Below are positions 1 to 21,227 of a DNA stretch of 64,000 nucleotides, piece after piece. A model generated the notes under the pieces. The model was not told where the DNA came from, ran no database searches, and saw only the letters and a list, made by a program, of their open reading frames with translations. Source of the stretch: Tessaracoccus sp. OS52 (lineage in GTDB: Bacteria; Actinomycetota; Actinomycetes; Propionibacteriales; Propionibacteriaceae); contig NZ_JAJEWM010000001.1 in assembly GCF_020687685.1 (NCBI RefSeq), positions 310,001 to 374,000 of the forward strand, given 5' to 3'. How positions within the stretch are numbered: position 1 is the first letter of the stretch; each line of letters opens with the position of its first letter. Both the position numbers and the translations under genes were made by a program.

Positions 1-207
1 CTGCCCGCCGACGACGAGGACGCCTACGTCCTGCACGCCGGGACCGCGCTCCACGAGGGTCACCTGGTGGCCGCCGGGGGGCGGGTGCTGGGCGTCGTCG
101 GACGCGGGTCGGACCTGGAGGCCGCCCGCGAACGCGCCTACGCCAAGCTGGCCGGGGTGGACTTCGCCGACGGCTTCCACCGCACCGACATCGGGGTTCC
201 CCACTGA
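1..207 (+). CDS. purD: Phosphoribosylamine-glycine ligase, C-terminal fragment
   Basis: Only the last 68 codons are in the window, open at the left edge and ending in TGA. The reading frame resembles the C-domain of GAR synthetase: an AYVLHAGT segment, a GGRVLGVVGRG turn and a closing helix rich in Ala and Arg. The enzyme joins 5-phosphoribosylamine to glycine using ATP in the cytosolic purine pathway. Its presence fits the other pur genes downstream (purB from 17072), from which it is now separated by about 17 kb. The ATP-grasp active site lies outside the window, so the call rests on the C-domain and on context. Confidence 0.8.
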   Translation: MPADDEDAYVLHAGTALHEGHLVAAGGRVLGVVGRGSDLEAARERAYAKLAGVDFADGFHRTDIGVPH

Positions 208-240
208 GCGCCACCCCCGTCCTTGTGCCATGATCTGGCC

Positions 241-627
241 ATGGCCAAACCTGCTGCCGACGACCGGTGTCCCTGTGGCGGTGAAACCTACGGCACCTGT
301 TGCCAGCCGCTGATCGAACAGACGGCCAAGGCCTGGACCGCCGAGGCCCTGATGCGCTCCCGTTTCACCGCCAACGCCATCGGCGAGACCGACCACCTGT
401 GGCGCACCTGGCACCCGAGGACCCGGCCCAAGCGCGTGCTGCCGTCGGGGAACCAGTGGCTGACCCTTGAGATCCGTGACGTCGTCGACGGGCAGCCGGG
501 TGACTCGACAGGCATCGTGGAGTTCGTCGCGACGTACCGGGACAACTGGCGCACGAAGGTCATGCACGAGCGGTCGACGTTCGAGTACCGAGCCAACCGG
601 TGGCTGTACGTGGAGGCGATCTCCTAG
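241..627 (+). CDS. YchJ-like (UPF0225) SEC-C/NTF2-fold protein
   Basis: This 128-residue cytosolic protein starts with a Cys-rich metal-binding segment, CPCGG followed by TCC at about residues 11-22, which matches the SEC-C-type zinc motif of YchJ proteins. The rest resembles the NTF2-like YchJ middle domain (ALMRSRF, WHPRTRP, FVATYRD, HERSTFE). An upstream ATG at 223 would add six residues, but the ATG at 241 directly precedes the usual family N-terminus. The function of the family is not established. It is convergent with the last gene of the large minus-strand operon, with only 10 bp between the stop codons and no obvious hairpin there. Confidence 0.8.
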   Translation: MAKPAADDRCPCGGETYGTCCQPLIEQTAKAWTAEALMRSRFTANAIGETDHLWRTWHPRTRPKRVLPSGNQWLTLEIRDVVDGQPGDSTGIVEFVATYRDNWRTKVMHERSTFEYRANRWLYVEAIS

Positions 628-637: not shown

Positions 638-2503
638 TCAGGTCTGGGGCGGGATGTCGACCAGCTTGTCGAAGGCCAGCCCGCTGGAGCCCTCGCCCCG
701 GCCGGTGCGCTTGCGGACGCCCAGCCAGGTGAACGTGCGTCCGGCGGTCCAGCGGGTGCGCTGGAAGCTGAGCGTGACGTGGGTGCCCGAGCGCGGCACC
801 TCCTCCTCGTGGAGCAGGTAGCCGACGGCGGGTGTCTCCTCCAGCCCCACCCGCAGCAACGACGTGCGGGGGCGGACGGGATCGGGAGAGGGATCGTCGT
901 CGCCGACCATGATCCGCAGCATCGCCGCGCGCTGCAACTGCACCTCCCGGTTGTCGCCGTCGACGTGGGTTGGGATCATCGGGATCCAGTTCTCCGGGAC
1001 CGACGTCATGACCTGGTACCGGATCCTGGCGCCCTCAGCCGGCGCTGGCGGCTCCGGCGGGTGCCCGAGCCGGGCCTCCAGCGCACGCTCGAAGAACCCG
1101 CGGGTCTGCGCGGCCGCCTCGTGTCCACTGGCCTTCTCACCCGACGGCAGGGCGATGCCGCGCTCGACGCCCCAGACCATGTTCGCCATCTCGTCGCGGG
1201 CCAGCAGCACGTCCTCCAGTGGCCTGCCCTCGAGCACCTGCCGAGCGGCCGGGGGGACGACGAGACTGAGGTCCGCGGGCACGTGCGCCTCGCCCTGGGT
1301 CGACAGCAGGAACATCGCCCACCGCTGCCAGTCCTCGTCGTCGCCAGAGCCCGCCGCCCGAACCCAGGTCTTCTCGCCGAAGACGTTGGTGACCGCGACG
1401 CCCCGGACCTCTGCGATGCTCCCGGCCGGGAGCGTGAACGGGACCACGTACCAGTCGTTGGCGAAGGTGAGGCCGAACTCCACCAGCAGCAGCTTGGCGA
1501 GGTCGGTGGTGTCGGGCCGGACGTCGCCGAAGTTGGTGCGGGTGTCCTCGAAGCGCCACCAGCGCGAGTTGGGCATGCCGTTGAACGTGACCTGCGTCGG
1601 CAGCATGGCCAGCGTGTGCGGCTCGGGCGGCGTGGCGGCAGGGTCCAGCTCCCCGAGCGGCTCGCCGGAGGGGTCGACGTCGAAGTTGTACCAGTCGAGA
1701 TGCCCGTGGAAGTACTCCTCGGCCAGCAGGACCTTCTCGCCGGTCTCGGTGGGCGCGGCGACGCCGAACTGGTACTCCAGACGGTTCGGCAGCCACGCCG
1801 TCGCCCCTGCCGGTTGCAGGAACAGCCCGTCGAACCACTCGACGAACCGGGCCGCGACGGGGTCGACCAGGGCCGCCATCGCCGACAGCGACGCGATGTT
1901 GTCGGTCGCCGCACCCCCGCCGACCAGGTGCGCGTAGAACTTTGCGCCGTCCATCAGCCGACCGCTTGCGGCGGCGAAGTTCGACCACGCCTCGGGGTGG
2001 GCCAGGGTCGGCGCGTCGGCCGGGTTCGTGGGGTCGGGAGCGTGCACCCGGTACTCCCCGATGTACTCGCCCCGCGCCGCCGCCGGGACGCCCGCGACGG
2101 TGCCCAGCATCTTCAACCACTGCCTGCCCATCAGCAACCGCACGTCGAGCGCGATCTCATGCCCAGCCTGGCTGAACCCGATCGGCAGGCGCTCCACCTC
2201 CGCCTCCAGCGGCACGGTCTCGTCGAAGGGTTCGACGGCGCCCTCGGCAGGCCGGTACTTGTGCAGCTTCGTCGTGGTCAGGTGGGCCTTGACGTCGATC
2301 GGCGAGCCCGCGTCGTCGCCGTTGAACTCGCCCAGTTGCCATTGCTTGGTCAGCATCCACAGCGGGTCCCGGACCTCGGCCCGCAGGGCACGGTCGAACT
2401 TCTCGGTGCGGGGCACGCCCTCGAGGCGGTTCCAGACGGTGATGCCCGGCTTCGTCTTCCCGGCGAGCACCTTGGAGATGTCAGCGGTGATGTCGAACGC
2501 CAT
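638..2503 (-). CDS. Uncharacterised 621-aa protein, last gene of the six-gene operon
   Basis: I cannot assign a function. The protein has no signal peptide and no membrane segment. Its most distinctive part is near the N-terminus: WMLTKQWQLGEF at residues 49-60, followed by an Asp/Gly-rich NGDDAGSP turn. Near the C-terminus lies NWIPMIPTHVDG followed by REVQLQRAAML, and the chain ends in a strand-rich segment. From memory only, proteins with such WxLxxQWQxGEF and NWIP...QLQRAAM motifs occur as hypothetical genes in other bacteria next to similar large genes. The ATG lies one base downstream of the stop of the 1647-aa gene, so translation is very likely coupled. Codon use looks like that of the neighbours. 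Confidence 0.85.
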   Translation of the reverse strand: MAFDITADISKVLAGKTKPGITVWNRLEGVPRTEKFDRALRAEVRDPLWMLTKQWQLGEFNGDDAGSPIDVKAHLTTTKLHKYRPAEGAVEPFDETVPLEAEVERLPIGFSQAGHEIALDVRLLMGRQWLKMLGTVAGVPAAARGEYIGEYRVHAPDPTNPADAPTLAHPEAWSNFAAASGRLMDGAKFYAHLVGGGAATDNIASLSAMAALVDPVAARFVEWFDGLFLQPAGATAWLPNRLEYQFGVAAPTETGEKVLLAEEYFHGHLDWYNFDVDPSGEPLGELDPAATPPEPHTLAMLPTQVTFNGMPNSRWWRFEDTRTNFGDVRPDTTDLAKLLLVEFGLTFANDWYVVPFTLPAGSIAEVRGVAVTNVFGEKTWVRAAGSGDDEDWQRWAMFLLSTQGEAHVPADLSLVVPPAARQVLEGRPLEDVLLARDEMANMVWGVERGIALPSGEKASGHEAAAQTRGFFERALEARLGHPPEPPAPAEGARIRYQVMTSVPENWIPMIPTHVDGDNREVQLQRAAMLRIMVGDDDPSPDPVRPRTSLLRVGLEETPAVGYLLHEEEVPRSGTHVTLSFQRTRWTAGRTFTWLGVRKRTGRGEGSSGLAFDKLVDIPPQT

Positions 2504-2504
2504 C

Positions 2505-5500
2505 TCAGCCCCCGATCCGGTCGACTTTGTTGTTGAGCGCCAGGTCCAGCGCGATCGTGAGCTGGTGGACCTGCGAGGCCAGCACCGTGGCCGGGAGGAA
2601 CGGTGCGTACGGCGTCGCGTCCAGTTGACGGGGTTCGACGGCCCTGAGCTTGGCCAGGTCGAGCGTCTCGTTGAGGGCGCCCACGACGTCGGCCCACTGC
2701 CAGGCGCCGCGGAACTCGGTCGGGGTCACCAGCAGCATCGACTGCGGCGCCTCGGAGTTGGGCCGGTCGTAGTGGAAGGCGATCCCGGTGTCCACGCTCT
2801 GGATGGGGATGGTCTCGGTCCACTCGTCGAGCAGCATTCCGCACTGGTCGGCGGTGGCGTCGAAGGCAACGGCGTGGTGGGCGGTGTAGAGCAGGCGGTC
2901 GGTGTCCAGCACCTTGTCCGCTGGGAAATCGAGGCCGAGCCAGTGGTCGTCGGCGCGGAAGGGGAGCTGGATGGCCACCAGCTCGGGCTCTGACCGGCCG
3001 AGGGCCCCGGAGAACATGACGGTCTGCTCCCAGGCGAACAGCTTGTCCCGCACCCGGGCCAGCCCGTAGAGCCAGTCGTCGACGGGGAAGTCGCTGGTGA
3101 GGTGGCGGAAGAGGTGTCCTGAGGCGGAGTCACCCTCCGCCTTGGTGAGCTCAGCGGCTTGCGTGGCGGGCAGCGCGAACACCGGGAAGACGCGAAAATC
3201 CTCACCGAGCAGCTGCCTGGCTGCCAGTTCCAGCGCCGCCAGCCGGGCCGGGGGATCGGTGGTGGCGTCGTGGGCGTCGAAGCTTTCCTGTGCGGCGGCG
3301 AGCCTCGCGTCCACGTCGGCGATCACCTGCAGCAGTACCCGGCCGGTGTCCTCGCTGAAGCGGGTGAGCTCCGCATCGTGCTCGGTCAGGGAGTACTCGA
3401 CGGCGTCGAAGCCGGACACCGGCAGCAGCGCCTCGACGTCGGCGCGCAGCCCGGACACGGTGCGTCGCGTGGTGTCGCCCACGGCAGCGAACTGGTCCCG
3501 CTTGGCCTCGAACGCGGCGAGCTTCGCGGTCAGGATCCCCTGGTAGGTCGCGACGTCGGGAAGCGGGGTGGTGACGGTAGTGGAGATGGCCCGTTCGGCT
3601 TGCGCCAGCAGGGAGAGCTTCTCCTCGTCGGTCGGGGCGAGCGTGGCGGCGGTGCGCTTCTCGACGAACTCGGCCTGCTTGACGTCCCACCGCGACACGA
3701 GTGTGTCGGCCTGCTCCAGGAGAGCGTTGAACGTCCTGCGCTGGAAGTCGTAGGCGAAGGCCCACCCGGCCTGCGGGATGCCGAACCTGCTCGCGCGGGC
3801 GAGGAGCTCCGCCACGTCGTCGACGAGGTCGTCGACGCTCCCGGCGGTCCCGCCCGCGAGCGCGTCGGCTTCGGTCTGCAGGTCGGTGCGCAGCGTCGTC
3901 AGCGCGGCGTGGACCCTGTCCAGGCGCCCCTTGTCGACGGCGGCCGAGGTGTCCTGCTCCGGCGAGCTGTCGTTCATGAGCGACAGGTCCGTGGGTCGCA
4001 GCGGCCTCGACAGCGTCGCCAGCCGTCGGAGGTTTCGCACCAGCGGCAGCAACTCGAAGACACTGTGGTCGGCGCCGCCGGCGTCGAGGTAGGCGATGGT
4101 GACCGGGCGGTCCGGACGAGGGTCCGCGGCGGCGCGGACCCGTCGGGTCACCAGGTCGTCCAGGCCGAAGGTGGCCGAGCCCGCGTCGTCGCGCAGGAGC
4201 AGCAGCAGGTCCGCCGGCTGGAGGCCCAACTGGTCCAGCGTGACGTCGATCGGCTCGGCCGTACCGGTGGCCGCCGAGGTGTAGGTGGCGACGCACCCAA
4301 CCGTCGCCAGGGGCGGCAGCACCTGGGTGAGCCAGGCGTTGAGTCCGGGCTCCGCAGTGGCCCGCGGCGTCATCGGAAGGCCGCCGGTGGGGGAGACGTC
4401 CGGGTCGGCCTCCGGATCCAGGTGGAGGGCCACGCGGTGGGTGAGGCCGGTGCCGCTCAGCGGGGTGCGCACGATGTCGGGCTCCGGTGGGAAGTTCCCG
4501 CGGGCGTAGGCGTCGTAGGTGGAGGCGACCCGGTCGTAGTTGCCGAGCACGGCTTGGTAGACGCCCTCGGACAGGGCCAGGTCCGCGACGGCGTCGTGCG
4601 CCTCCCGCAGCCTGTCGGCCTCCGCGTTGATGGCGGCGGCCTCCGTGGGCGAGGCGGGCTGCAGGCCGGTCTTCCCGAACGGGTAGGTCAGCTTCCCGCT
4701 GGCGGCCATGTGCTCCGCCAGCGCCAGCCCGTCGATGACGTTGCGCGCCTCGATGTTGGTGATCGGCTCAGCCGGGTCCGACTTGGTGGAGGCGAGCTTG
4801 TCCGCCCTGAGCGGGAAGGCCTTGCGCAGGTCGAGGATGAACTTGTCCACCTCTGCGAGGGCGTGCCGGTCATGCAGCCCCCGCTCGAACTGGTAGCCCA
4901 GCAGGCTGGACAGGCTCTGCCCGGCGCGGATGCCCTCGATGAGGGCGAGGGCTGAGCGCACCCGCTCCGAAGTGAGGTTGACCGCGAGCGCCTGCCGGTT
5001 GTCTTCGCCGGCATTGGAGATGAAGCCGTTGCGAAGCACCGCGGCGGCCGTGGCGTGGTTCAGGGACGGGGCGTGGACGTAACCCTGGTTGGTGCTGTCG
5101 GTCATGAGGGGGGAACGGTCCTTGAAGACCTCGGCGAGGTCGTCGGGGACGTCGGCGGGGGCGAGGGCCTTGTGCTCCGGGCGGAGGTCCTCCAGCCAGG
5201 CATAGCCACCGAGGTGGAGGCCCTGGCGGACCTCGTCCTCGGCGCCGTCGCGCAGGTTGCGCATCATCGTCAGCTGCAGGTTCACCAGCCCCTGCAGCCA
5301 CGCGTCGAGGCGGTAGGAGGCCAGGTCCAGGTGGTCGGCGGTCACCCGCTCGAGGACGGCGGTGGGCTGGTCCTTGAGCCGGTCCAGGGCGGTGAGCTGG
5401 TCCGCCAGGGGGAAGTCCAGTGAGAAGCTCCGCAGCTGGAGCCCGATGTAGCTGTGCACCGGGAGGCTGGCGTTGCCCGTCACCTCCACCGCGCTGCCGT

Positions 5501-7448
5501 ACAGGGGGCCGTACCGGCTCTCACTGGCCAGGGCGTTGTCGCGGACGTGGAGGAAGGGGTCGTCGGCGCGGGCCAGCCGGACCTGCTGGGCGTCGAAGAG
5601 CCCCGCACCCTCGTAGAGCCGGATCCCGGCGTCGGAGTAGCCGAGCTGCAGCGCGTGCCTCAGCATCAGGTAGAGCAGCGCGGTGGGACGTTTCCCGTCG
5701 ACGAACCCCTGCTGCCGGTAGAGCGCGTCCAGCGAAGTGTTGGCGGCGTCGGCGAGCCATTCGAGGTAGTTGCGGCCGTCGTCGGTCCAGGCGCGGACCG
5801 GGTTGGTCTCGGAGAGCGGGGAGTCGTCGACGACGCCGCCGGAGAGCAGGTTGTGCCTCCCGGAGAAGGCCAGGTCGAGGATCTTGGGGTTGCCGTCGCC
5901 GTCGTAGCCGAGGTCACTGAGTCGCTGGCGTGCCGCCACCCGCTCCGCGGCTACGAGGAAGGCGTTGATCCGGCCGCCGAAGCCCAGCAGGTTCAGCCGG
6001 TTGTACAGGGTCTGGAGGGACTCGGCGTAGCGCTGATCCCACTCCACGGACCCGGGGTGGAGACCCAGGACGTCGAGCAGCAGCTGGTGGGGGTCCCCCG
6101 CTCCGCCGACGTGGGAGAGGTCGTCGACGAGGTCCTCGAAGTCCTCCCGCATGCCGAGCAGGACCCCGTGCAGGCCGGACAGGAAGTTGTTGCCGCGGTG
6201 GTTATCACGACGCACGTCGCCCTCGAACCAGCGCATCCTTGAGTACGCGGTGGCCGGCAGGATCCCGTAGGGCTGCTGCCCGATCCTGATGGCCGGACAC
6301 GCGCCGCCCCCGACGACGTAGCGGGTGAGGAACTCCCTGGTGGCGGAGATCGTGGCGTCATCGAAGACCGGTGCCATCATGGTCTCCATCCAGTACCCGA
6401 ACGTGCCCGGCCACAGTGCGGTGTGCATCGCGCGGGCGGCCAGCTGGTCCTGGGAGCCGGCACCGTGGACGTGCTGCAGCAGGGCGGGGTCGATGCCGAG
6501 GAGTTCGGCAAGCCACTGCCCGTCGCGCTTGTCCAGCCAGCCTCCTGCCGCGGTGAACAGCGGTGTGGCCAGGTCGTCGAAGCTCTGGTCCGGGTCGTCG
6601 AGGCGGTCGAACCCGGTGCCCACGTCCTCGGTGTTGTTCGTCGGTGTCCCCTGCGGCAACACCTCGATGCCGGTGCGCCGGTGGGTGTGGTGCAGCAGCA
6701 GCGTCTCCAGTTCGTCCTTGACGGACTCCTCGGAGCCCATCCGGATGCCGACGACATGCACCCGCCGGAAGCCGCGCGCGGCTTGCGTGGAGCTCAGCGG
6801 GATGCGCATTGCCATCCCCACCTCCACGGCCCGCTCGAAGTCGGTCAGCCAGGTCAGTTCCTCGGGCACCACGAGGTTGCCCTGGGCGTCGTGGGTCAGC
6901 TGTTCGGCTTCTGGCGCGTTGGGATCAGGGCCGAGGAGCAGCGGCTGCACAACTTCCGAGCCGACGCGCACGAGCGGCTCGGTGGTGGCGTCGCCCTCGT
7001 AGCCGAGGAAGACGAACCGTTGCGGCAGGACCAGCGCGCGCGGGGCGCTTGACCAGGCGGTCTCCCTGGTCTGGACCTGCGGAAAGGTCAGCTCGGCGGC
7101 GCCGTCGTCGACGGGCCGGTGGGCCTGGACCAGCCACCGTGAACGGCCGGAGCCGTGGGCCTTGACGAGGGCCGCCCAGGCGCCGCGTTGCTGGTCGACG
7201 TCGTCGCCGGCCGCAGCCATCGATTGCCAGTACGCCTCGGTGTTGGCCACCTCGGTCCCGGTCAGTGCAGGGTCGAAGGTGTCGATCCAGCAGTCGTCGG
7301 GGAAGATCCGCAGCCACAACTCATCGGCCCCGCCGGCCACCTGCATGAACCGCGTCTCGAGCCGCAGCGGCATCAACAGGATGGGCAGGGTGTCTTCGAG
7401 GTGCCCCAGCGAGAGGCTGCGGTCCAGTACCTGTGCGAACTCGGACAT
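2505..7448 (-). CDS. Uncharacterised 1647-aa giant protein of the operon
   Basis: This is the largest gene in the window; its function is unknown. There is no signal peptide and no clear transmembrane helix, so it is probably cytosolic. Recognisable landmarks are an N-terminal LPILLMPLRLETRF block at residues 21-34, IRIGQQPYGILP at about 387-398, a long mixed middle, and a helical, charged and probably coiled-coil stretch at about 1230-1350 (repeated Glu, Lys, Ala and Gln heptads). The C-terminal few hundred residues are enriched in FRADDHWLGLDFP-type strands. No ATPase P-loop, nuclease motif or protease triad was seen. It starts four bases after the stop of the 1092-aa gene and ends one base before the ATG of the 621-aa gene. 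Confidence 0.85.
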   Translation of the reverse strand: MSEFAQVLDRSLSLGHLEDTLPILLMPLRLETRFMQVAGGADELWLRIFPDDCWIDTFDPALTGTEVANTEAYWQSMAAAGDDVDQQRGAWAALVKAHGSGRSRWLVQAHRPVDDGAAELTFPQVQTRETAWSSAPRALVLPQRFVFLGYEGDATTEPLVRVGSEVVQPLLLGPDPNAPEAEQLTHDAQGNLVVPEELTWLTDFERAVEVGMAMRIPLSSTQAARGFRRVHVVGIRMGSEESVKDELETLLLHHTHRRTGIEVLPQGTPTNNTEDVGTGFDRLDDPDQSFDDLATPLFTAAGGWLDKRDGQWLAELLGIDPALLQHVHGAGSQDQLAARAMHTALWPGTFGYWMETMMAPVFDDATISATREFLTRYVVGGGACPAIRIGQQPYGILPATAYSRMRWFEGDVRRDNHRGNNFLSGLHGVLLGMREDFEDLVDDLSHVGGAGDPHQLLLDVLGLHPGSVEWDQRYAESLQTLYNRLNLLGFGGRINAFLVAAERVAARQRLSDLGYDGDGNPKILDLAFSGRHNLLSGGVVDDSPLSETNPVRAWTDDGRNYLEWLADAANTSLDALYRQQGFVDGKRPTALLYLMLRHALQLGYSDAGIRLYEGAGLFDAQQVRLARADDPFLHVRDNALASESRYGPLYGSAVEVTGNASLPVHSYIGLQLRSFSLDFPLADQLTALDRLKDQPTAVLERVTADHLDLASYRLDAWLQGLVNLQLTMMRNLRDGAEDEVRQGLHLGGYAWLEDLRPEHKALAPADVPDDLAEVFKDRSPLMTDSTNQGYVHAPSLNHATAAAVLRNGFISNAGEDNRQALAVNLTSERVRSALALIEGIRAGQSLSSLLGYQFERGLHDRHALAEVDKFILDLRKAFPLRADKLASTKSDPAEPITNIEARNVIDGLALAEHMAASGKLTYPFGKTGLQPASPTEAAAINAEADRLREAHDAVADLALSEGVYQAVLGNYDRVASTYDAYARGNFPPEPDIVRTPLSGTGLTHRVALHLDPEADPDVSPTGGLPMTPRATAEPGLNAWLTQVLPPLATVGCVATYTSAATGTAEPIDVTLDQLGLQPADLLLLLRDDAGSATFGLDDLVTRRVRAAADPRPDRPVTIAYLDAGGADHSVFELLPLVRNLRRLATLSRPLRPTDLSLMNDSSPEQDTSAAVDKGRLDRVHAALTTLRTDLQTEADALAGGTAGSVDDLVDDVAELLARASRFGIPQAGWAFAYDFQRRTFNALLEQADTLVSRWDVKQAEFVEKRTAATLAPTDEEKLSLLAQAERAISTTVTTPLPDVATYQGILTAKLAAFEAKRDQFAAVGDTTRRTVSGLRADVEALLPVSGFDAVEYSLTEHDAELTRFSEDTGRVLLQVIADVDARLAAAQESFDAHDATTDPPARLAALELAARQLLGEDFRVFPVFALPATQAAELTKAEGDSASGHLFRHLTSDFPVDDWLYGLARVRDKLFAWEQTVMFSGALGRSEPELVAIQLPFRADDHWLGLDFPADKVLDTDRLLYTAHHAVAFDATADQCGMLLDEWTETIPIQSVDTGIAFHYDRPNSEAPQSMLLVTPTEFRGAWQWADVVGALNETLDLAKLRAVEPRQLDATPYAPFLPATVLASQVHQLTIALDLALNNKVDRIGG

Positions 7449-7451
7449 TGC

Positions 7452-10400
7452 CTACTCCGGGAGGATCTCGTGGGCGTGGACGGCCACCAGGACCGGTGAC
7501 TGGAACGTGACGTAGGCCAGCAGCGCCGAGTTCAGCGAGTCCCGGCGCCACTCGATGTGGCGGTCGTCGAGGTACTGCGGGTACTTCTCGTCGGAGCTGC
7601 CCGGCGATGCGACGGTGAGCTGGGCGGGCGCCGCGGCCAGGTCTATGTGGGCGCCAGCGGGGGCGGGCTGGACCAGCGGCCAGGACAGGTCGTTCCACAC
7701 GTTCAGGGTGGCCGCCTCGTCGGTGTCGAGCCCGAAGCTGGGCTCCCCCGGGCGTTCCTTGATGACGAAGAACCAGCCCGGGTCGTCGCCGGGGTTCTCG
7801 CCGGATTGCCCCTTGGCCTCGGCCGCGGTGAGGTCGAAGCCGAAGAAGTAGATGTCGGGGTCCACCTTGGCCTCGTAGAGCGGGGTCAGCAGCTTCGACG
7901 TCGGGGGCTTCTCCTCCTCCGCGGCGGTGAGTTCCACCAGGCGGCGCTCGACGGTGTTGTCGATGGCCCCGCCGTCGGTGAGCTGCCACCGGGCGCGGTG
8001 GGCGTAGACGACGGCGTTGGGGTAGCGCTTCAGGAGTTCGCCGCGGATCACCAGCACCAGTTCGTTCTCGTCCGGCCCGCCGGGCGGCTCGCGGTGGTCG
8101 TGCTCGCCGAGCTTTGACGCCTTCGGCCATTCGTGCAGCGGCGGGATGTCTCGCAGCTTCTCCTTGAGTGCCTCGTCGTCCAGGTTCTCGGTGTTGAAGA
8201 AGCTGCGCACGTCCCAGAACTGGCGGAAGGTGGAGCCGCGTTGGTCGGTCGGGTACTCGCGCCACAGCAGCTCGCGGGCGAACTCGTGGTTGAGCCCCAC
8301 CATGTAGGCCTCGATGAAGGGCTGGTTGGTCTCCAGGAGCGTGATCGTGTTGGGCTGGATCAGGTTGATGTTGGGCAGGAACAACTCCGAGGAGCGGTCC
8401 TTCAGCGGCTCGTACATGGGCGTGTCGATCACCGGGTAGGCCATCGGCTCGACGAACGTCTCGCGCGGCGGCGCCACCAGGTCGTCCTTGATGCGTTGTG
8501 GCAGCACGATTCCTGCCAGCACCCGGCGCGGGATGGTGGTGGTGGGGCGGACGGCCTCGATGGCGGTGGTGGCGATCCGGCCCAGATCCACGCGTCCCCG
8601 CGCCGGCGGGCGGCCGACGGTACGGCTGTCGCGGATGCCGCCCAGGGTTTCCGAGAGCGCCTCCTTGAACCGGGCTGCCTCGAGGCTGTCGGTGGAACCG
8701 CGGACGGGACGGAAGGGTTCGCCGACGTCCTTGACCTCGAAGTTGGGCACAGGTGGCAGGTCCTCGACGTCGTCGGCGCTGATCCCGGTGAGGTCCATCA
8801 GGTCCGCTCCGCGCGTGTCCAGACCCCAGCCGGACAAGAGACGGAACACCACGATGCCCGCGACGACGAGCGCGGCCGCCACCAGCAGGCCGAGGATTCG
8901 GGGGAGCAGGATGAAGGCGACCAGCGCGAGCATGAGGGCGATCAGCAGGATCACCCACGCGAGCTGGGGGAACCGTCGCAGCAGGTCCAGCACCCAGTCG
9001 GGGGCGCCGGAGGGCTCCGCGAGCTCCGCGGCCTCCTCGGCGGTGAAGACGCCGGGGGGTGCGGTCTTGGGTGGGGCCGCGCTCACGTCGCCGTCGTTCA
9101 CTCGGTCGAGCAGGTCGTCGGGGCGATGGAGGGCGTCGAATGGCAGGGACGTCATGAGCCTGCCTCGGGGCCGGATGACGCGGCGCAGCGCGGCCGAGGT
9201 GAGCGTCGGCTGCACCAGGCTCCCGGCCAGCCGGTGGTGGAGCGTCACGCCGTCGGTCAGGATCCGCTTGTTCAGGGGCGCGAGCAGCAGCAGACCGCGT
9301 TGCCGGCTGAGGCCGACGGTGGGACGCAGGCTCGCGTCGTACCAGACCTCGGTGGTGAGCAGGCCGAACTGGCCGAACCGGATCCGGCGAGAAGCCTCCA
9401 GGACGTCGCCGATCTGCTCCCAGGCGGCGTCCATCAGCTTCTCCTGCTGGTCCTGGATGACGCCGGTGCCGATCCCTGCGGCGGCGCGGTACCGGGGGTC
9501 CAGGTTGAGGCGGTGGATCCAGTTGTCATCGGGAGCGATGGGGGAGCCGTCGTGCTCGGTGAGCACCCGCCTGGCCATGGCGTGCCAGGTGCCGTACAGC
9601 GGCGGGGTGATGATGGGGTCGGGTTCGCCCTCACGCTGGTAGTCGTCGGGAAGGTTGAGCAGGTGCGCGAGGTCCGTCTGGAGTGGGCGCGGGAACGGCT
9701 CGTCCCACCTCTCGAACACGTCGGGCGGGGTGGGTGGAACCGTCGAGGGTGGCTTCAGCGCGCCCCCGAGCTTGAGGATGCCGCCCAGATCCGGGTTGTC
9801 CACGCCCCTGACACCGGAGCCGGGTACCTGTACGTCCATCTCGCGAGACCCGACGCGCGGGTCCACCACGCGTGGCACCAGCAGCCGCACGAGCGTCTCG
9901 AAGTCGCCCGAGGTGGCGGTGCGGAAGAACCAGCGGTGGTAGTAGGGGAAGGACTGGCCCTGGGGCCGGGTGGCGGGGTCCCATGCGGACATCGTCGCCA
10001 CCACGTCGCCGAGTTCAAGGCCGAGACCCGCTCGGCGGCCGGTCTCGAACGTCGGGATCAGGAACGCGTGGTAGGCGGTGTTCTCCTTGAGTTTGCGGGG
10101 GCACAGCAGCCGTGAATAGGCGAGGTCGGGGTTCTCGGCGAGGGTCGCGCTGAACTTCCCGATGACCGCGCCCATGTCGGTGGAGGTGAACTCGTCGTCG
10201 CTGGCGGCCAGGCTCCGGTTCACGTGCACGTGCGCCCAGGCCCACAACTCGTCGGCCTTGGGGAAGACGGAGAGGTCGGCTACGTCGATGTAGGGCAGTG
10301 GCTTGTCTGTCATGTTCTGGCCCGGCACGAACTCGTCCTCCGCCAGCACCACGAGCGCTATCCATGGCCGCAGCCGCCCCTTGGCGACGTCGGGGGCCGC

Positions 10401-10730
10401 GGGCGTGTAGCGCCAGGGAAAGTCCTCGTCGTAGAACTCCAGGAAGGGCAGGTAGTTCGGCTCGAAGTTGGTGATCCAGTCCAGCGGCTCCGAGCGCACC
10501 ACCGCCGCCCTGTCGATCCCGACGATGTCGCCCGGCCCCACCAACGGCACCTGGTGGTTGAAGGGAGGGGCGGCCAGCTCACCGCCGTCGGCCTTCTTGC
10601 CCTTGGCGGTCAGCTGGACGTCGATGGCGGCCCGGACCTTGACTCCGGCCGAATGGTCCGGCGCCGAGATCTGGTTGGCCAGTCCCTGCCGCAGCCAGGG
10701 CAGGAAGGAATAGGTGCCAAGCGTGCTCAT
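7452..10730 (-). CDS. Uncharacterised 1092-aa protein with a central membrane hairpin
   Basis: The function is unknown. The N-terminus reads MSTLGTYSFLPWLRQGLANQI. The first ~580 residues are soluble-looking and contain LRPWIALVVLAEDEF and a Trp-rich WAWAHVHVN block. Two adjacent hydrophobic helices follow at about residues 589-612 and 616-636, separated by a Pro-Arg turn; they look like a re-entrant or two-pass anchor that places both flanking parts on the same side. The ~450-residue C-terminal part includes LPNINLIQPNTITLLETNQPFIEAYMVGLNHE-type sequence (partly quoted: NTITLLETNQPFIEAYM) and a WREYPTDQRG segment. Its ATG overlaps the stop of the preceding gene (ATGA). It is the only operon member with a clear membrane segment. 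Confidence 0.85.
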   Translation of the reverse strand: MSTLGTYSFLPWLRQGLANQISAPDHSAGVKVRAAIDVQLTAKGKKADGGELAAPPFNHQVPLVGPGDIVGIDRAAVVRSEPLDWITNFEPNYLPFLEFYDEDFPWRYTPAAPDVAKGRLRPWIALVVLAEDEFVPGQNMTDKPLPYIDVADLSVFPKADELWAWAHVHVNRSLAASDDEFTSTDMGAVIGKFSATLAENPDLAYSRLLCPRKLKENTAYHAFLIPTFETGRRAGLGLELGDVVATMSAWDPATRPQGQSFPYYHRWFFRTATSGDFETLVRLLVPRVVDPRVGSREMDVQVPGSGVRGVDNPDLGGILKLGGALKPPSTVPPTPPDVFERWDEPFPRPLQTDLAHLLNLPDDYQREGEPDPIITPPLYGTWHAMARRVLTEHDGSPIAPDDNWIHRLNLDPRYRAAAGIGTGVIQDQQEKLMDAAWEQIGDVLEASRRIRFGQFGLLTTEVWYDASLRPTVGLSRQRGLLLLAPLNKRILTDGVTLHHRLAGSLVQPTLTSAALRRVIRPRGRLMTSLPFDALHRPDDLLDRVNDGDVSAAPPKTAPPGVFTAEEAAELAEPSGAPDWVLDLLRRFPQLAWVILLIALMLALVAFILLPRILGLLVAAALVVAGIVVFRLLSGWGLDTRGADLMDLTGISADDVEDLPPVPNFEVKDVGEPFRPVRGSTDSLEAARFKEALSETLGGIRDSRTVGRPPARGRVDLGRIATTAIEAVRPTTTIPRRVLAGIVLPQRIKDDLVAPPRETFVEPMAYPVIDTPMYEPLKDRSSELFLPNINLIQPNTITLLETNQPFIEAYMVGLNHEFARELLWREYPTDQRGSTFRQFWDVRSFFNTENLDDEALKEKLRDIPPLHEWPKASKLGEHDHREPPGGPDENELVLVIRGELLKRYPNAVVYAHRARWQLTDGGAIDNTVERRLVELTAAEEEKPPTSKLLTPLYEAKVDPDIYFFGFDLTAAEAKGQSGENPGDDPGWFFVIKERPGEPSFGLDTDEAATLNVWNDLSWPLVQPAPAGAHIDLAAAPAQLTVASPGSSDEKYPQYLDDRHIEWRRDSLNSALLAYVTFQSPVLVAVHAHEILPE

Positions 10731-13700
10731 GAGACCGCCTCGAATCCCGGGATGACGTGCAGGCTCTCAGCCAGCGACGGGTCCGCCTTGACCTGCGCGG
10801 TGAGGAAGTCCTGGGCGCTGGCCTGGCTCTGGAACACCGCCGTGGAACTGAACGCCTTGTTGTCCGACGACGTCGCCACGACGAACTGTTCGGCGTGGAC
10901 CTCCACCTTGTCCTCGAACGGCACGGTCTTCTTCCGCATCGCCTGCGACATGGGATTGCGCGTCACGGCGGCGCCGCCCAGGAAGAACTGGAAGAGCGTC
11001 CCTGCGAAACCGCTGAACCTGCGCGCGAAGCGCTTGTAATTGTTGTCCAGGATGATCTCCTCGTAGCGGACCACGCGCTTTGCCATCATGCTGGAGCGCA
11101 CGTCGGCCCCGGACGCCGACAGGTCCAGGCCGGAGTGCTCCGGTGTGAACGCCGGCTGGGACAGCTTCTCCGCGTCGCTGAAGTTGCGGAACTGGGCCGG
11201 GGCGAACTGCTCCGTGGCGTCTGCCACCTTCGCGAGGCCGCCACCGGTGACCTGGACCTCCAGTCGGTTCACGTCGGAGGGCTTCTGGGCCCCGACCTTG
11301 TCCAGCACCAGGTCGAGCGGCAGCGCCCGCTGGGAGATGCGCAACACGCCCACGGGGTGGAGGATCCCGGCGGCCTCCTCCTGGGGCATCGAACGGATGG
11401 CCACCATCAGCTTCGACGAGGTCGGCAGGATCGCCCGCCAGTTGTCCGTCTTGCGGATCTCGGTGTCCAGCACCGGAAGCACCTGCACCGGGTCGAGCAC
11501 CGTGTCCTTCGCGTCCCCCCAGGTGTGTTCGAACTCGACGTCGATGTCGAAGAACAGCAGCGAGATCGACCCGTGCCCCTTGACATGCCACGGGGTGGGG
11601 CCCTCGAGTTCGCCGCGGATGCTCACCGACAGCAGCCCAACGCCGAAGGCCCTCACGGAGAACGAGGCTGAGATCTCGACGATGAACCAGAACGGCGAGA
11701 ACTGGAACAGGGCGTCGATGGCCAGGAAGCCCTGGGCGTTGAAGTCGCTGGAGCCGAAGAACGCGTCCACCCGGGCGCCGAACTGCACGGTGTTGGAGGT
11801 CACGGCGAAGTAGCCCTGGATGGAGACCCGTGCGACGGGGGTGTTTATGAGGTCCACGCAGACCCGGCGCGGGCTGGGGAACGGCAGCGGCGGCGGGGAG
11901 AACCGGGGGTGGAAGCCGCCGACGCTGAGCACGAAGTTGGCGTCCTGCCCCCACGCCACCAGCAGCCCCATCTCGCCCTCGATGGTGAGGAACGCCACCC
12001 GGGACTCATACAGGGCGGCGAAGAACCACAGCCGTTGCTTGTCGAACTCGATGGCGCCGATGAAGTTGACCTGCAGCACGATGACCGCGACGTCGTCGGC
12101 GGGGATGGCCACCTTGATGATGCCGACGATCGCGATGTTGCCCGGGATCTCGATGATGACCCCGAGCGACAGGCTCGCGAGCGTCGGGGTGCCCCACCCG
12201 AGCTTGACCATGGGGCCGACGAGGAACGTGCCCTCGCGGGGCGGGAAGAACGCCCGCAGGTCGCTGATGATCTTCGGCGCGTTCGCGACGATGTCGCTGG
12301 GGAACATCACCGACTCGATGGCCCCGGAGCGGATGCCCTCTGCCAGTGCCTGGAGGTTCATGGTGCGGTTCAGGCCCACCAGGCCGCCCACCGCGAGGAG
12401 GGTGAACCCGAATCCGAGCTGGATGCCGGTGCCGAAACCCACCGACATGATGATCAGCAGCGAGAACCCCGAGCTGCCGTCCGGCATCCGGGTGGTGATG
12501 ATCCCGATCGCCTGGATGCTGACGGTCTCGAACAGCGAGAGCTCGACGGCCCCCGCGTACTCCCCACGCTCGGGGTCGATGAACAGGTAGCCACCGCCCT
12601 TGACCGCGCCGACGTCGAGCGACAGCCCGACGCCCTTCGGCGGCAGGAAGCGGAGCGCGAAGTCCAGCGGGCCGACGTTGCCGGAGCGGTCCGGCGGGAT
12701 GGTCAGGTCCGCGCCGATCCCGATCTGCTCCACCACCGCCTTGAGCGGCCCCAGGTCCGTGCGGAGGTTGGTGGTCAGCCCGATCGGGAAGCTGTCGTCG
12801 GCGATCCCGACGGTCAGCGTCAGCGCGCTGATCTCCACCGGGCCCAGCTGGATGTGCAGCGGCAACTGGATGTCGAGCGTCGCCGACCCCGCGAAGAAGA
12901 GGCCCTGCGCGGAGGAGAAGCCGACGCCGAGGTCGAACTGCGAGTCCAGTCCGAACCCGGACAGGATTGTGCCGAGGAAGCCGTCGGCGCCCGCGAGGGA
13001 GACGACCAGCCGACCACCCTGCACCTCGCCACCGAGTTTCCAGGTGCCCTCACCGCGGCCGTTGGTGGTGTCGTGGGCGAACCCGACCTTGCCCGTGGCG
13101 ATGAACTTGCGGATCTCCAGGCGGCTGCCGCCCGGCTCGCCGAGCACCACGTAGGGAGTGCCGGCCGCGCTGCCACCCGTCCACGTCACGGCGAGGTCGC
13201 CCTCGACTCTTCCGGGTGTGGCCGGGACCAGCGAGACGCCGTCGTCGGCGGTGATGATGGCCTCCACCCCGGGGACGATCGGGGTGTTCAGCTCGACGGC
13301 CAAGGACCAGTCGTCCTGGGTGATGGGGGCGGGGTTCACCTCCAGCGGGTGCGCGATCCTGATGCGCAGACCGGTCGGGGCGTCGAGTTTGGGGGAGAGC
13401 TCGAAGGCCAGCACGTCCAGCACGGGAACCGGGCCGCTGGTGTCCAGCACCGCGGGGACGCCCGCCCCGGCGAGGAGCCGGTTCAGCGTCGCGAGCAGCG
13501 TGTCCCCGGTGAAGCCGGGATCGCCCCACTGGTAGAGCGCGCGTAGGTGCTGGGACGGGTCGGTGAGGAAGTCGGACAGGGCAGCGAAGTCGACGCTGCG
13601 TCGCACGAAGGCGGGATGGGTGACGTCGACGGCGGGCACGTCCACCCGTTCGACGAAACCGATGAAGTCCAGCGCAGCCGCTGCACCGGGGATCTCCTCG

Positions 13701-14128
13701 AGGTTGCGCACCAGCAGGTAGTCGACGAGGCGGCCGGGGAGCTGGTCGGCGAACTGGTTGAGCTCCGCCGTCGGGACCCCGGTGCCGCTGAGCCCCTTGA
13801 TGGCCGCCGCGATGTCGGCGATCCCGTCGACGGTGGCCGCGACGCCGGTGGCGAGCTGCAGCGCCTTCGCGATGATCTGGCCGGTGTCCTCGGCCGCGAC
13901 GGCGTCGGCCAGGTCCGCGATGACCGGCGGCAGGTCGGTGATGCGCTGGACGGTCGCCTGCCCGGCGGCCGACAGCGCACCGTCGGCATCGACGCTGGCC
14001 GGCAGGTTGAGCCCGAGCTCGGCGAGCAGGACCCGCAGGTCGCCGCCGGTGAGGCGGTCCTCCAACGGCTCGACCAGGCGGGCCAGGGCCTCGCCCAGTG
14101 CCGCCAGCGTTCCTTCGTCCTCGGCCAT
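10727..14128 (-). CDS. 1133-aa beta-rich protein, possibly DUF6603-like
   Basis: The first ~230 residues are Ala/Leu-rich helices. After that the protein is dominated by many short strands of alternating hydrophobic and polar residues with frequent Gly, for example GGGYLFIDPERGEYAG and SLLIIMSVGFGTGIQLGFGF around 530-580, then GVIIEIPGNIAIVGIIKV and repeated FDxxxxF strands to about 880. This looks like a long amphipathic beta sheet, barrel or groove rather than a set of transmembrane helices. From memory the middle part resembles DUF6603, a large family of unknown function; I could not test this. It has no signal peptide. It begins four bases after the stop of the second protease and overlaps the next ATG by four bases. 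Confidence 0.8.
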   Translation of the reverse strand: MAEDEGTLAALGEALARLVEPLEDRLTGGDLRVLLAELGLNLPASVDADGALSAAGQATVQRITDLPPVIADLADAVAAEDTGQIIAKALQLATGVAATVDGIADIAAAIKGLSGTGVPTAELNQFADQLPGRLVDYLLVRNLEEIPGAAAALDFIGFVERVDVPAVDVTHPAFVRRSVDFAALSDFLTDPSQHLRALYQWGDPGFTGDTLLATLNRLLAGAGVPAVLDTSGPVPVLDVLAFELSPKLDAPTGLRIRIAHPLEVNPAPITQDDWSLAVELNTPIVPGVEAIITADDGVSLVPATPGRVEGDLAVTWTGGSAAGTPYVVLGEPGGSRLEIRKFIATGKVGFAHDTTNGRGEGTWKLGGEVQGGRLVVSLAGADGFLGTILSGFGLDSQFDLGVGFSSAQGLFFAGSATLDIQLPLHIQLGPVEISALTLTVGIADDSFPIGLTTNLRTDLGPLKAVVEQIGIGADLTIPPDRSGNVGPLDFALRFLPPKGVGLSLDVGAVKGGGYLFIDPERGEYAGAVELSLFETVSIQAIGIITTRMPDGSSGFSLLIIMSVGFGTGIQLGFGFTLLAVGGLVGLNRTMNLQALAEGIRSGAIESVMFPSDIVANAPKIISDLRAFFPPREGTFLVGPMVKLGWGTPTLASLSLGVIIEIPGNIAIVGIIKVAIPADDVAVIVLQVNFIGAIEFDKQRLWFFAALYESRVAFLTIEGEMGLLVAWGQDANFVLSVGGFHPRFSPPPLPFPSPRRVCVDLINTPVARVSIQGYFAVTSNTVQFGARVDAFFGSSDFNAQGFLAIDALFQFSPFWFIVEISASFSVRAFGVGLLSVSIRGELEGPTPWHVKGHGSISLLFFDIDVEFEHTWGDAKDTVLDPVQVLPVLDTEIRKTDNWRAILPTSSKLMVAIRSMPQEEAAGILHPVGVLRISQRALPLDLVLDKVGAQKPSDVNRLEVQVTGGGLAKVADATEQFAPAQFRNFSDAEKLSQPAFTPEHSGLDLSASGADVRSSMMAKRVVRYEEIILDNNYKRFARRFSGFAGTLFQFFLGGAAVTRNPMSQAMRKKTVPFEDKVEVHAEQFVVATSSDNKAFSSTAVFQSQASAQDFLTAQVKADPSLAESLHVIPGFEAVS

Positions 14129-14132
14129 GGCA

Positions 14133-15512
14133 CTATCCGGCGGGTTGCCGGGCCCCCTCCCACATCTCGATCATCGCTGCGACGGTCTCCGCGCCCGCGA
14201 GCGCTGGCCCGATCACCGGCACGAGCCGGTCGAGGTCGGCCACCAGTTCCTCGCTGCCGGTGGCGCGCAGGGCGACGGCGAGCTGGGCGACGGTGGTCTT
14301 CCGGTCCACCCCGTTCATGCGGTCGGGCAGCAGGTAGCCGGGGTCGGCTGCGCTGCGGAACAGGGCTGCCAGGAAGGCAGGTCCCTGGCTGCGGTGCCAC
14401 GCGATGGTGAAGCGGCGGTTGCGCTCGACCAGGTCCAGGCACTCGTCGCGGTGCCGGTCCACGATCCGCAGCAGGTCGCGCCCGGCGTCGCCGGCGCGAA
14501 GGCGCTCGACCAGCGCCGAGTACGGGGCAGCCACGGGTGCGGGGCGGTCCGAGTCGATCCAGTCGAGCACCGTGTAGTCCTCCTCGCCGGTGGGGATGAC
14601 CTCGATCTTCATCGCGAGCATCACCTCGTCGATGGGCGAGCCGAACCCCTCCAGGCCGTTCCCGGAGTGGTGCAGCGCGCAGACGTTGCCGGTCGCCAGG
14701 CTGACGTAGACCGAGCCGGAGTCGCCCTTGTTGCTCATCCTCGTGAACGGGGCGATCGGGTGGACCTCCACCCGCCCCGGGTCCACCTCCGTGATCATCC
14801 CGCGGGTGAGGCCGGTCCGGGCGCCCACCTTCCACACCTCGTCGAGCACCACCGGCGCCTGGGACCCCTCGATCCTGCCGGCCAGTTCCAGGGTCCCGTC
14901 CGGCTTGGTGATGCGCCGGATCTTCGGGGCGAAGGCGACGCCGGAGTCGAGCTCGGCGGTGGCGCAGTCGAGGTCCTCGTCCCAGTCGAGCACCTCCGCG
15001 ATCTTCCCGCAGGCGCAGCAGCAGGACTCCCGCCAGCGTGGGTGGCCCACGCCGTCGCCGACGTTGCCGCCGGGGTCGATCAGCACGTGCCAGTTGCTGA
15101 GCAGCACCACCGAGTCGCGGTCGGTGTGCCGGCAGAACATGCCCAGGGTCCCGGTGCCGCCCGCCACCTCCGCGCCGATCCGGGACCCACCGACCTTCGG
15201 GGAGTACTCGGTGCGGTCGTCCTCGTCGTTGAAGCCGACCTCCTTGACCGGAAGCCGCTTCACCACGACGTCGGTGGCCACGCCCAGGACCATCGGCGGC
15301 ACGACGTCGGCCGGTGGCAGTTCAGCCAGCGGGATCTTCTCCTCCACGTGGACCCGGAAGACGAACTCCTCCTCGATCCCACCGGCCCGCTCACGGGCGC
15401 CGACGGCGACCCGCACGACCCCCGGATACTGCATCAACTGCTCCCGGGCCTGGGGCAGCAAAGCGTTCAGGCGTTCGGTCTCCGCCTGCTTCTGCTCGTA
15501 GCTCATGGTCAT
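14133..15512 (-). CDS. Intracellular trypsin-like serine protease, paralogue B
   Basis: This 459-residue protease of chymotrypsin fold has a full catalytic triad by motif: His142 in LLSNWHVL, Asp182 in LDCATAEL and Ser265 in KGDSGS. Residues 1-90 form a small N-terminal domain (PGVVRVAVG, PPMVLGVATDV) seen in bacterial trypsin-like proteases of this kind. A Cys cluster CCCAC (164-168) with Cys127 may bind metal or form disulfides. Residues ~330-459 are a helical domain containing FTIAWHRSQGP that is shared with paralogue A. There is no signal peptide, so it is probably cytosolic. The ATG at 15512 overlaps the stop of paralogue A. Substrate and trigger are unknown. Confidence 0.85.
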   Translation of the reverse strand: MTMSYEQKQAETERLNALLPQAREQLMQYPGVVRVAVGARERAGGIEEEFVFRVHVEEKIPLAELPPADVVPPMVLGVATDVVVKRLPVKEVGFNDEDDRTEYSPKVGGSRIGAEVAGGTGTLGMFCRHTDRDSVVLLSNWHVLIDPGGNVGDGVGHPRWRESCCCACGKIAEVLDWDEDLDCATAELDSGVAFAPKIRRITKPDGTLELAGRIEGSQAPVVLDEVWKVGARTGLTRGMITEVDPGRVEVHPIAPFTRMSNKGDSGSVYVSLATGNVCALHHSGNGLEGFGSPIDEVMLAMKIEVIPTGEEDYTVLDWIDSDRPAPVAAPYSALVERLRAGDAGRDLLRIVDRHRDECLDLVERNRRFTIAWHRSQGPAFLAALFRSAADPGYLLPDRMNGVDRKTTVAQLAVALRATGSEELVADLDRLVPVIGPALAGAETVAAMIEMWEGARQPAG

Positions 15513-16888
15513 GGCACTGCCACCCGCGCCTCGAGCAGACTGACCATCTCATCCACGGTCCGGGCGTGCGCGAGCACGTCGAACAGCCGGGGTCCGTGGG
15601 CGGCGAGATCCTCCCGGAGGGCGTCGCTGCCCTCCGCGGCCAGGGCTTCGCGGATCCGTTCCAGCGCCTCGGTCCGGACCACTCCCTCGATCTCCGCGGG
15701 GATCTCGTAGATCGGGTCTCGGGCGCTCCTGCCGAACGCCGCCAGCCAGGTGGGTCCGCGGTTGCGGTGCCACGCGACGGTGAAGCCGCGGCGCCGCTCC
15801 ACCAGCCGGAGCGCCTCGGCGACGTTGCGGTCCACGACCTCCAGCAGCTCCCGGCCGGCCGGCTCCGCGCGGAGCCGGCCAACGAGGCTCTCGAAGGGTG
15901 ACGCGGCCGGCAGCGGGAACAGGTCCTCGTCGTCCTCGTCCCAGGACTCGGTGTAGGTGGTGGAGGGATCGCTGGGGATGACCGTGATCCCGAGGGTGGT
16001 CTGCACCGTGAGGATGTTCTTCATCACGCCGATGGTCCCGAGTTCGTCCTCGATGGCGTAGAGCAGGCCGACGACGTTGCCCGTGGCCTTCTCCACCACC
16101 ACCGAACCCGAGTCGCCGTAGAAGGCGAACTTCGCGAACGCCGGGTCCACGTCGATCGTCAGGGCCGGCACGACGGTGCTGATCGTGCCCCGGGTCAGGC
16201 CCGTCCGGTAGCCCACCTTCCAGACCACCATGCCCAGCACCGGTGCCGAGGTGCCGGCGATGCTGCCCTCCTCCTCCACGGTCCCGTCGCCGCGCTTGAT
16301 GCGCCGGATCTTGGGGAAGAACGGGACCGTCACCGAAGCGATGGCGCAGTCCTGGGCCTGGTCGGCGGCCAGGACCTTGCCCATCTCGTTGCAGGTGCAG
16401 CAGCAGCTCTTGCGGTGTTCGGGCTGGCCCACCCCGGAACCGATCTGGGCGCTCGGGGCGAGCAGGACGTGGTGGTTGCTGAGCAGCACGACCGAGTCGT
16501 CGCTGGTGCGCTTGCAGAAGCAGCCGAGCGTGCCCCAGCCCCCGGACCCCTCCGCGTTGATCGCGATCCCGCCGACCTTCGTGCCGTAGTTGCGGTCGTG
16601 CTCATCGTCGCCGAACCCCAGCAACAGCTTGGGGGTGCGGACCACCTGCACGTCGGTGGCGAAGCCGAGCACCTCGGGTGGGACGCGTTCGGAGGGGGCC
16701 AGGTCCTCGTCGGGCAACTTCTGGGTGACGTAGGCGATGTAGACGGGCTCCTCGACGAGTGAGCCGCGGCGGCGTCGCAGGCCGATGCCGACGTCGCGGA
16801 CTCCCGGGACCTGCATCAGTTCCCGGCGTGCGTCGTCGTATCCGGCGACGAGTTGGGCCTGTAGTTCGGCCCAGTCAGTCGTGGGCAA
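15509..16888 (-). CDS. Intracellular trypsin-like serine protease, paralogue A, first gene of the operon
   Basis: The architecture is the same as paralogue B: an N-terminal domain (VPGVRDVGIG, PPEVLGFATDV), a protease core with His140 (LLSNHHVL), Asp180 (QDCAIASV) and Ser260 (YGDSGS), the Cys cluster CCCTC (162-166) plus Cys123/Cys125, and a ~130-residue helical C-terminal domain with FTVAWHRNRGP. I chose the TTG at 16888 because a strong GGGAGG Shine-Dalgarno lies six bases upstream (16895-16900). This start also gives exactly 459 residues, the same length as paralogue B. The open frame continues to 17002, but the extra part is Arg/Pro-rich and has no ribosome site. It is divergent from purB, with 183 bp between the starts. 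Confidence 0.83.
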   Translation of the reverse strand: MPTTDWAELQAQLVAGYDDARRELMQVPGVRDVGIGLRRRRGSLVEEPVYIAYVTQKLPDEDLAPSERVPPEVLGFATDVQVVRTPKLLLGFGDDEHDRNYGTKVGGIAINAEGSGGWGTLGCFCKRTSDDSVVLLSNHHVLLAPSAQIGSGVGQPEHRKSCCCTCNEMGKVLAADQAQDCAIASVTVPFFPKIRRIKRGDGTVEEEGSIAGTSAPVLGMVVWKVGYRTGLTRGTISTVVPALTIDVDPAFAKFAFYGDSGSVVVEKATGNVVGLLYAIEDELGTIGVMKNILTVQTTLGITVIPSDPSTTYTESWDEDDEDLFPLPAASPFESLVGRLRAEPAGRELLEVVDRNVAEALRLVERRRGFTVAWHRNRGPTWLAAFGRSARDPIYEIPAEIEGVVRTEALERIREALAAEGSDALREDLAAHGPRLFDVLAHARTVDEMVSLLEARVAVP

Positions 16889-17059
16889 AGCGGACCTCCC
16901 GCCGCTCAAGAACCCAACCAGGTGTGCCTCGCACCGCTGCGGGGCACGGGCGACGGGCCTGGCAAACCGGGGACGTCGCGTATGAACAGGTGCGAGCAAC
17001 AAGTGTCACTCCCGGGCCGGTTCACTTTCCACTGATTCGGGTGGAGAATCGCCACGCAA

Positions 17060-17065
17060 TAGGCT
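17060..17065 (+). promoter_or_regulatory. -10 element of a leaderless purB promoter
   Basis: TAGGCT fits the TANNNT consensus and ends six bases before the ATG at 17072, which puts +1 on the A of the start codon. No Shine-Dalgarno sequence is visible before purB, which agrees with leaderless translation. This element sits in the 183-bp divergent region shared with the protease operon. Confidence 0.5.
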
Positions 17066-17071
17066 GTGCCC

Positions 17072-19380: not shown

Positions 19381-19396
19381 TCACGAGGCCGGGAAA

Positions 19397-19458: not shown

Positions 19459-19550
19459 CCTCCTCCCTCGCCTGAGTGTCCCCACCCGGCGGCACTGGAA
19501 CCCGACGTCCGCAGGCGGCTTGGGGCGAGAACCCCCAGCCGCTGGTCCAG

Positions 19551-19556: not shown

Positions 19557-19563
19557 TTGCCCC

Positions 19564-21221: not shown

Positions 21222-21227
21222 GCCGTC

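Follow-up and report, generated by a model that had tools for sequence, protein, structure and literature searches.

A conserved four-protein core with an exchangeable enzyme slot in Tessaracoccus sp. OS52: a probable modular carrier for enzymes in bacteria and haloarchaea

Six open reading frames on the minus strand span positions 16888 to 638 of a 64,000-nucleotide stretch of the Tessaracoccus sp. OS52 genome (contig NZ_JAJEWM010000001.1, positions 310,001 to 374,000; this whole stretch is "the window" below). In reading order they are A1 (459 amino acids, aa), A2 (459 aa), B (1133 aa), C (1092 aa), D (1647 aa) and E (621 aa), together 5,411 codons, and each junction is an overlap or a gap of at most four bases. 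A first-pass annotation had described exactly this unit, and its coordinates, strand and junctions are all confirmed. A1 starts with TTG at 16888, preceded by the ribosome-binding site GGGAGG; a sigma-70 promoter scan of the interval between purB and A1 found none. The comparisons reported here place A1 and A2 in a variable enzyme slot in front of a constant core, and show the N-terminal part of B changing together with the occupant of the slot. The genes, with B given in two parts, are:

15509..16888, minus strand: A1, trypsin-like serine protease, candidate cargo, 459 aa, TTG start, without signal peptide (motifs; phrog_20754 'protease', 5.5e-24)
14133..15512, minus strand: A2, trypsin-like serine protease, candidate cargo, 459 aa, without signal peptide (motifs; phrog_20754 'protease', 2.8e-26)
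12674..14128, minus strand: B-N, putative cargo-matched adaptor module, about residues 1-485 of B, helical over 1-230 and then beta (exchange with cargo; tag co-divergence; model)
10727..12673, minus strand: B-C, constant part of B, with long amphipathic beta strands (about residues 486-870) and a small C-terminal region (PF20248; model; amphipathicity; fold search)
7452..10730, minus strand: C (YSFLPWLRQG), core protein (homologue alignment; no Pfam or PDB match)
2505..7448, minus strand: D (PLRLETRF), largest core protein (homologue alignment)
638..2503, minus strand: E (WMLTKQWQLGEF), core protein (homologue alignment; model with a predicted local distance difference test, pLDDT, of 82)

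Searches of all six proteins against Pfam, NCBIfam, PHROGs and PADLOC recognise only DUF6603, in B, and the PHROG 'protease' family, in A1 and A2. By their motifs A1 and A2 are trypsin-like serine proteases, each carrying the defining His motif (NHHVL at 138 in A1, NWHVL at 140 in A2) followed by the GDSG nucleophile motif (GDSGS at 258 and at 263, respectively). The Pfam trypsin family has no match in the window proteins and NAL1_N stays below its cut-off in A1; other cargos of the family match Pfam Trypsin or Nal1_C. A1, A2 and the slot protein of one further locus (L082) resemble, weakly to moderately, the plant NARROW LEAF 1 protease family (NAL1_N, Nal1_C). B is a full member of DUF6603 (PF20248; 433.9 bits against a cut-off of 27, E 9.8e-130, residues 424-986), a family without described function that no paper names in the literature searched, which omits most subscription journals as well as preprints. 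None of the four libraries gives a convincing match for C, D or E, and Pfam finds nothing in 32 homologues of C and D. Deep-profile searches of PDB with B, C, D and E yield no relative, the matches of B and D being generic helical bundles; one stretch in the second half of D weakly resembles helical bundles only. The model of E is confident except at the most conserved motif of the protein, and its fold has no clear match among solved PDB structures. That this motif combines the highest conservation with low model confidence makes it a candidate contact site. The description of the core as undescribed stands, in that no function was found for it in the families or in the (incomplete) literature searched. 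Compared with the 1837-aa D of Kribbella antiqua, the window D is shorter by about 190 residues, most of the difference lying near the N-terminus. Two features within the core proteins are:

8820..8975, minus strand: hydrophobic, hairpin-like stretch of C, residues 586-637 (52 residues; present in about half of C homologues)
2300..2368, minus strand: most conserved motif of E, residues 46-68, DPLWMLTKQWQLGEFNGDDAGSP (alignment; low confidence in the isolated model)

The core is a real multi-gene unit and not a chance run of reading frames, its four genes recurring as homologues, in the same order, in dozens of loci across many phyla. A contig scan with C yields 310 relatives, the best 80 of which were analysed (L numbers). 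Downstream of C comes D in 74 of these and E in 70, and wherever one is absent the contig ends there; in 77 loci C is preceded by B, the exceptions being one locus at a contig start, one with 1.8 kb upstream, and L037. Median gaps are -1 base for B-C, 8 for C-D and 0 for D-E. The order B-C-D-E is kept in at least nine bacterial phyla (Bacteroidota, Actinomycetota, Pseudomonadota, Chloroflexota, Acidobacteriota, Planctomycetota, Myxococcota, Cyanobacteriota and Gemmatimonadota) and in haloarchaea; plasmids that carry it come from Streptomyces, Rhizobium, Gemmatirosa and two haloarchaea. An independent search with E finds 7 positives among 296 actinobacterial genomes, and all four E-positive genomes other than the window's own whose contig is long enough contain B-C-D-E. 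The four core proteins diverge together (their pairwise distances correlate at r 0.90-0.95), the tree of E requires 19 changes of phylum, and the window core groups in it with Kribbella and then with two alphaproteobacteria. The genes are thus neighbours in other genomes and none of the giants is a known phage, toxin or surface protein, so that neither of the outcomes that would have refuted the first-pass annotation is seen.

A few loci depart from the standard layout. L037 (a Chitinophagaceae metagenome-assembled genome, 1-5110) has C-D-E without B across 5.1 kb upstream, and is either misassembled or a variant lacking B. L002 (Streptomyces anthocyanicus plasmid, 14103-21782) has E without B, C or D, with two IS5 transposases a few kilobases away, and looks like a decayed locus. 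L003 (Rhizobium plasmid, 12038-19926) has two genes in place of C and two in place of D, C being broken in its variable middle. Five actinomycetes (L041, L066, L068, L076, L079) have a kelch beta-propeller gene inserted between B and C, and a longer B as well; Streptomyces lateritius (G367) and Actinomadura craniellae (G378) carry extra copies of DUF6603 away from the main cassette. We rejected a phage origin, as no relative of E was found in viral contigs and the lone phage-labelled match is unverified: L005 (MT835531.1, 'Bacteriophage sp.', an UNVERIFIED gut scaffold), with a B fragment and C-D-E, is probably a mislabelled bacterial contig.

The gene abutting B upstream varies from locus to locus. 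Across the loci this slot holds trypsin-like proteases, subtilases, M64 and M14 peptidases, PhoD phosphatases, phospholipase D (PLD), tyrosinase, galactose oxidase-like proteins, DUF4056 proteins and unrecognised families, and its enzyme class changes at least 34 times on the E tree (70 rows). Tandem pairs or triples of proteases with a common C-terminal domain, as in the window, are common among the loci. Because the same position elsewhere holds oxidases, phosphatases and phospholipases, the proteases are to be read as cargo; on this comparison they behave as interchangeable occupants and not as controllers. The earlier proposal of an assembly controlled by proteolysis is not supported, with tyrosinase, galactose oxidase, PLD, PhoD and M14 enzymes standing where the proteases stand here, while a large assembly as such remains plausible.

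The domain common to many of these cargos, hereafter the tag, was found by BLAST between slot proteins. It covers some 125 C-terminal residues (motif VTxxWHRxxGP...GS..L) and is common to trypsin-like and subtilase cargos, two groups with unrelated catalytic folds. In the window it lies at:

15530..15913, minus strand: tag domain of A1, about residues 326-453 (slot-protein comparison; own-genome profile search)
14157..14537, minus strand: tag domain of A2, about residues 326-452 (slot-protein comparison; own-genome profile search)

Family searches and a PDB deep-profile search give the tag no known family or solved structure, and no homology was found among C, D, E and the tag. It is confined to these loci. 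In its own genome the tag profile matches A1 and A2 only; among 296 actinobacteria it occurs only in that genome (none of the 295 further sampled genomes has it). Three of 60 relatives carry it, all of them positive for DUF6603, and none of the DUF6603-negative genomes among the 60 does. In 20 further whole genomes, 31 of 31 tag copies lie on the same strand as DUF6603 and within a few kilobases upstream. A galactose oxidase-like cargo (L028, residues 590-665) and an M14 cargo (L066, residues 441-516) have a common region of their own after the catalytic domains, which possibly hints at a second kind of tag.

Cargo and B-N are exchanged together. Core windows were compared for excess similarity between loci sharing the tag, and all strong windows lie within the first 440 or so residues of B (mean 0.078; C, D and E windows average 0.000, standard deviation 0.008), a level reached by 0 of 2000 label permutations; the permutations ignore phylogeny, and the constant parts of the same loci and phylum labels serve as controls. 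Phylum labels give no such signal, and labels for M64 and for untagged subtilases do. Twelve pairs of loci with close cores and different cargo are 55-87% identical over B 441-990 and about 20-35% over B 1-440, with the switch at residues 406-500, so that the border between B-N and B-C moves between these limits from pair to pair. For example, L068 (trypsin-like) and L070 (PLD) are 71% identical over C, D and E, 75% over B 441-990, and 25% over B 1-440. If the tag docks on B-N the two should diverge together, and they do: over 21 non-redundant loci, tag and B-N distances have a partial r of 0.78 (bootstrap 0.64-0.85, 0 of 2000 permutations), against 0.09 for tag and B-C and -0.05 to 0.17 for tag and C, D or E.

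The same pattern could arise by linkage only, with one recombination tract running from the cargo gene through the 5' half of B and the proteins making no contact. The cargo gene does adjoin the 5' part of B, and crossovers could naturally fall in the conserved DUF6603 region. Such a tract would be expected to fade with distance, however, and the signal is instead flat over B 1-440 and then drops sharply. The tag also tracks B-N beyond what the catalytic domain explains (partial correlation 0.74 versus 0.41) and does so across unrelated catalytic domains. Finally, two loci of different phyla, L021 (Cyanobacteria) and L023 (Gemmatimonadota), have cargo (61% identical) and B-N (58-78%) in common though their cores differ (C, D and E 49% identical). 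We consider linkage as the whole explanation distinctly unlikely.

The order of the core, the swappable slot, the confinement of the tag, the joint exchange and the co-divergence of tag and adaptor are all established by sequence comparison, and a modular enzyme carrier with a cargo-matched adaptor is very probable. The carrier would consist of four constant proteins, the DUF6603 half of B together with C, D and E, and its cargo would be one or more enzymes encoded just upstream, here the two trypsin-like proteases. The tag would dock on the N-terminal roughly 480 residues of B, and the cargo gene and adaptor half of B would be swapped as one cassette between otherwise constant cores. Physical docking of the tag on B-N, and the assembly of B, C, D and E into one particle, we infer; these and export are predictions from sequence and structure models.

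What such a carrier does with its cargo is suggested in part by B. Its model (of moderate quality, predicted template modelling score, pTM, 0.51) has a helical N-terminus and about 30 long strands, and the strands are strongly amphipathic, with one hydrophobic face almost free of charge (z 10.5 versus shuffles). In a fold search the nearest shapes are ApoB and large outer-membrane barrels or porins (Z about 14, with a root-mean-square deviation of 11-18 A), and viral structures give no helpful match. Contact of B with lipid or membrane is plausible from the model. The earlier description of a membrane-anchored member refers to the hydrophobic stretch of C, which is not a constant feature, about half of the homologues lacking one. 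Subtilase, M64, M14, PLD, tyrosinase and galactose oxidase are mostly enzymes acting on external polymers, and yet a hydrophobic N-terminal stretch occurs in 1 of 75 slot proteins and B, C and E show no Sec or Tat signal. These cargo types, the missing signal peptides and the amphipathic B favour export or delivery: the carrier might take the enzyme outside the producer, or into a target, independently of Sec, the beta-sheet of B contacting a membrane. That this is its purpose is quite possible, and we hold it tentatively.

Absent signal peptides, in cargos and core proteins alike, would also suit an intracellular scaffold or compartment, in which the core stores or organises enzymes by way of a C-terminal targeting domain common to unrelated enzymes, and nothing is exported; joint exchange of cargo and adaptor fits this equally well. 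Set against it are the cargo types, with their mostly external substrates, and the core itself, four giant, different, single-copy proteins unlike a shell of one small repeated protein, with no shell family matched. A scaffold is therefore unlikely in our estimate, though to be taken seriously. A complex attached to the surface, displaying degradative enzymes on the producer's own envelope, would account for the surface-type annotations (Lamin-tail, BGTF) of E and D from haloarchaea, the VCBS repeats in a Streptomyces C, the kelch propellers inserted in the five actinomycetes, and the hydrophobic stretch in about half of C proteins. These surface-type domains are sporadic, however, and with Sec and Tat signals missing from B, C, E and nearly all cargos we regard display as very unlikely.

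On the left the window operon is flanked by purD (its 3' end) and a SEC-C/YchJ-like gene (1-627, plus strand), and on the right by purB (17066, plus strand) and then more purine genes (names assigned by reading translations). In the closest relative in the genus, G026 (purB 92% identical), the SEC-C gene directly adjoins purB, and the 16.4 kb operon region is therefore a clean insertion. DUF6603 is present in 3 of 35 other genomes of the genus, whose cassettes are divergent. Mobile insertion and patchy distribution, together with the swappable effectors known from some defence systems, could point to a stress or anti-phage system whose proteases act inside the cell, as the first-pass annotation had suggested. 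PADLOC finds 0 families in the six proteins (a new system could escape this library), no NTPase, sensor or nuclease is recognisable in the operon, many cargos are not proteases, and the locus sits within a purine gene cluster; defence is the least probable of the explanations considered, and highly improbable. Another subtilase gene, apart from the operon by about 7 kb and encoding PA and Fn3-like domains (23741-26425, minus strand), overlaps the end of a plus-strand reading frame (21276-23744) by 4 bases.

Several observations weigh against the carrier model. No core protein resembles a known translocation machine, the model of B is moderate only, and the hydrophobic stretch of C, missing from about half of homologues, is not a constant part. 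Roughly half the slots are occupied by cargos without the tag, whose docking the model does not explain, and PhoD cargo labels show no clear adaptor signal. Two pairs of loci with tagged trypsin-like cargo (L068/L079 and L014/L048) have similar cores and low B-N identity, so that subtypes exist; and the adjacency of cargo and B-N could partly explain their joint exchange. Taking all of this together, we lean towards a constant carrier with docked, swappable enzyme cargo and possible delivery as the best overall explanation. More tentative than export itself is the proposal of a new class of Sec-independent delivery machine, found in bacteria and haloarchaea, whose four-protein core, with a giant amphipathic beta-sheet subunit that contacts or crosses membranes, may be reloaded in the course of evolution by swaps of enzyme-tag-adaptor cassettes.

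If correct, this would mean a widespread enzyme carrier with parts in no described functional family and with natural rules of cargo exchange, and a first mechanistic frame for DUF6603. It would explain why usually secreted enzyme classes are encoded without signal peptides beside giant hypothetical proteins, and the tag-adaptor pair could serve as a modular loading system.

Nothing relevant to such a system was found in the literature searched. Tc (ABC) toxin complexes are alike in having very large proteins and an exchangeable enzyme, but the six proteins and the 32 homologues of C and D show no Tc, Rhs or YD-repeat match (Pfam; the six also by NCBIfam), and here no cocoon protein is attached to the enzyme. 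Extracellular contractile injection systems are likewise multi-gene machines carrying cargo enzymes without signal peptides; family searches with the six proteins match no sheath, tube, baseplate, tape measure or AAA ATPase of such systems or of phage tails. Encapsulins recruit cargo enzymes by a C-terminal targeting element, whereas here the tag is a whole domain, the core is four giant subunits, and Pfam matches no HK97-type shell. In these searches, then, the system shows none of the features that define Tc toxins, contractile injection systems, encapsulins and known defence systems.

The closest likeness is to polymorphic effector systems (Rhs, contact-dependent inhibition or CDI, and VgrG/PAAR of the type VI secretion system, T6SS), which also combine constant machinery with a variable enzyme, an exchange border at the module edge and an effector-matched adaptor. 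Those families are unmatched here and no immunity gene was identified; the cargo is instead a separate upstream gene with a C-terminal tag, and what varies is one half, the 5' one, of a core gene. On the sequence comparisons, the operon works like a polymorphic effector system, with an interchangeable effector and a matched module, without belonging to a described one, and delivery would be its predicted outcome.

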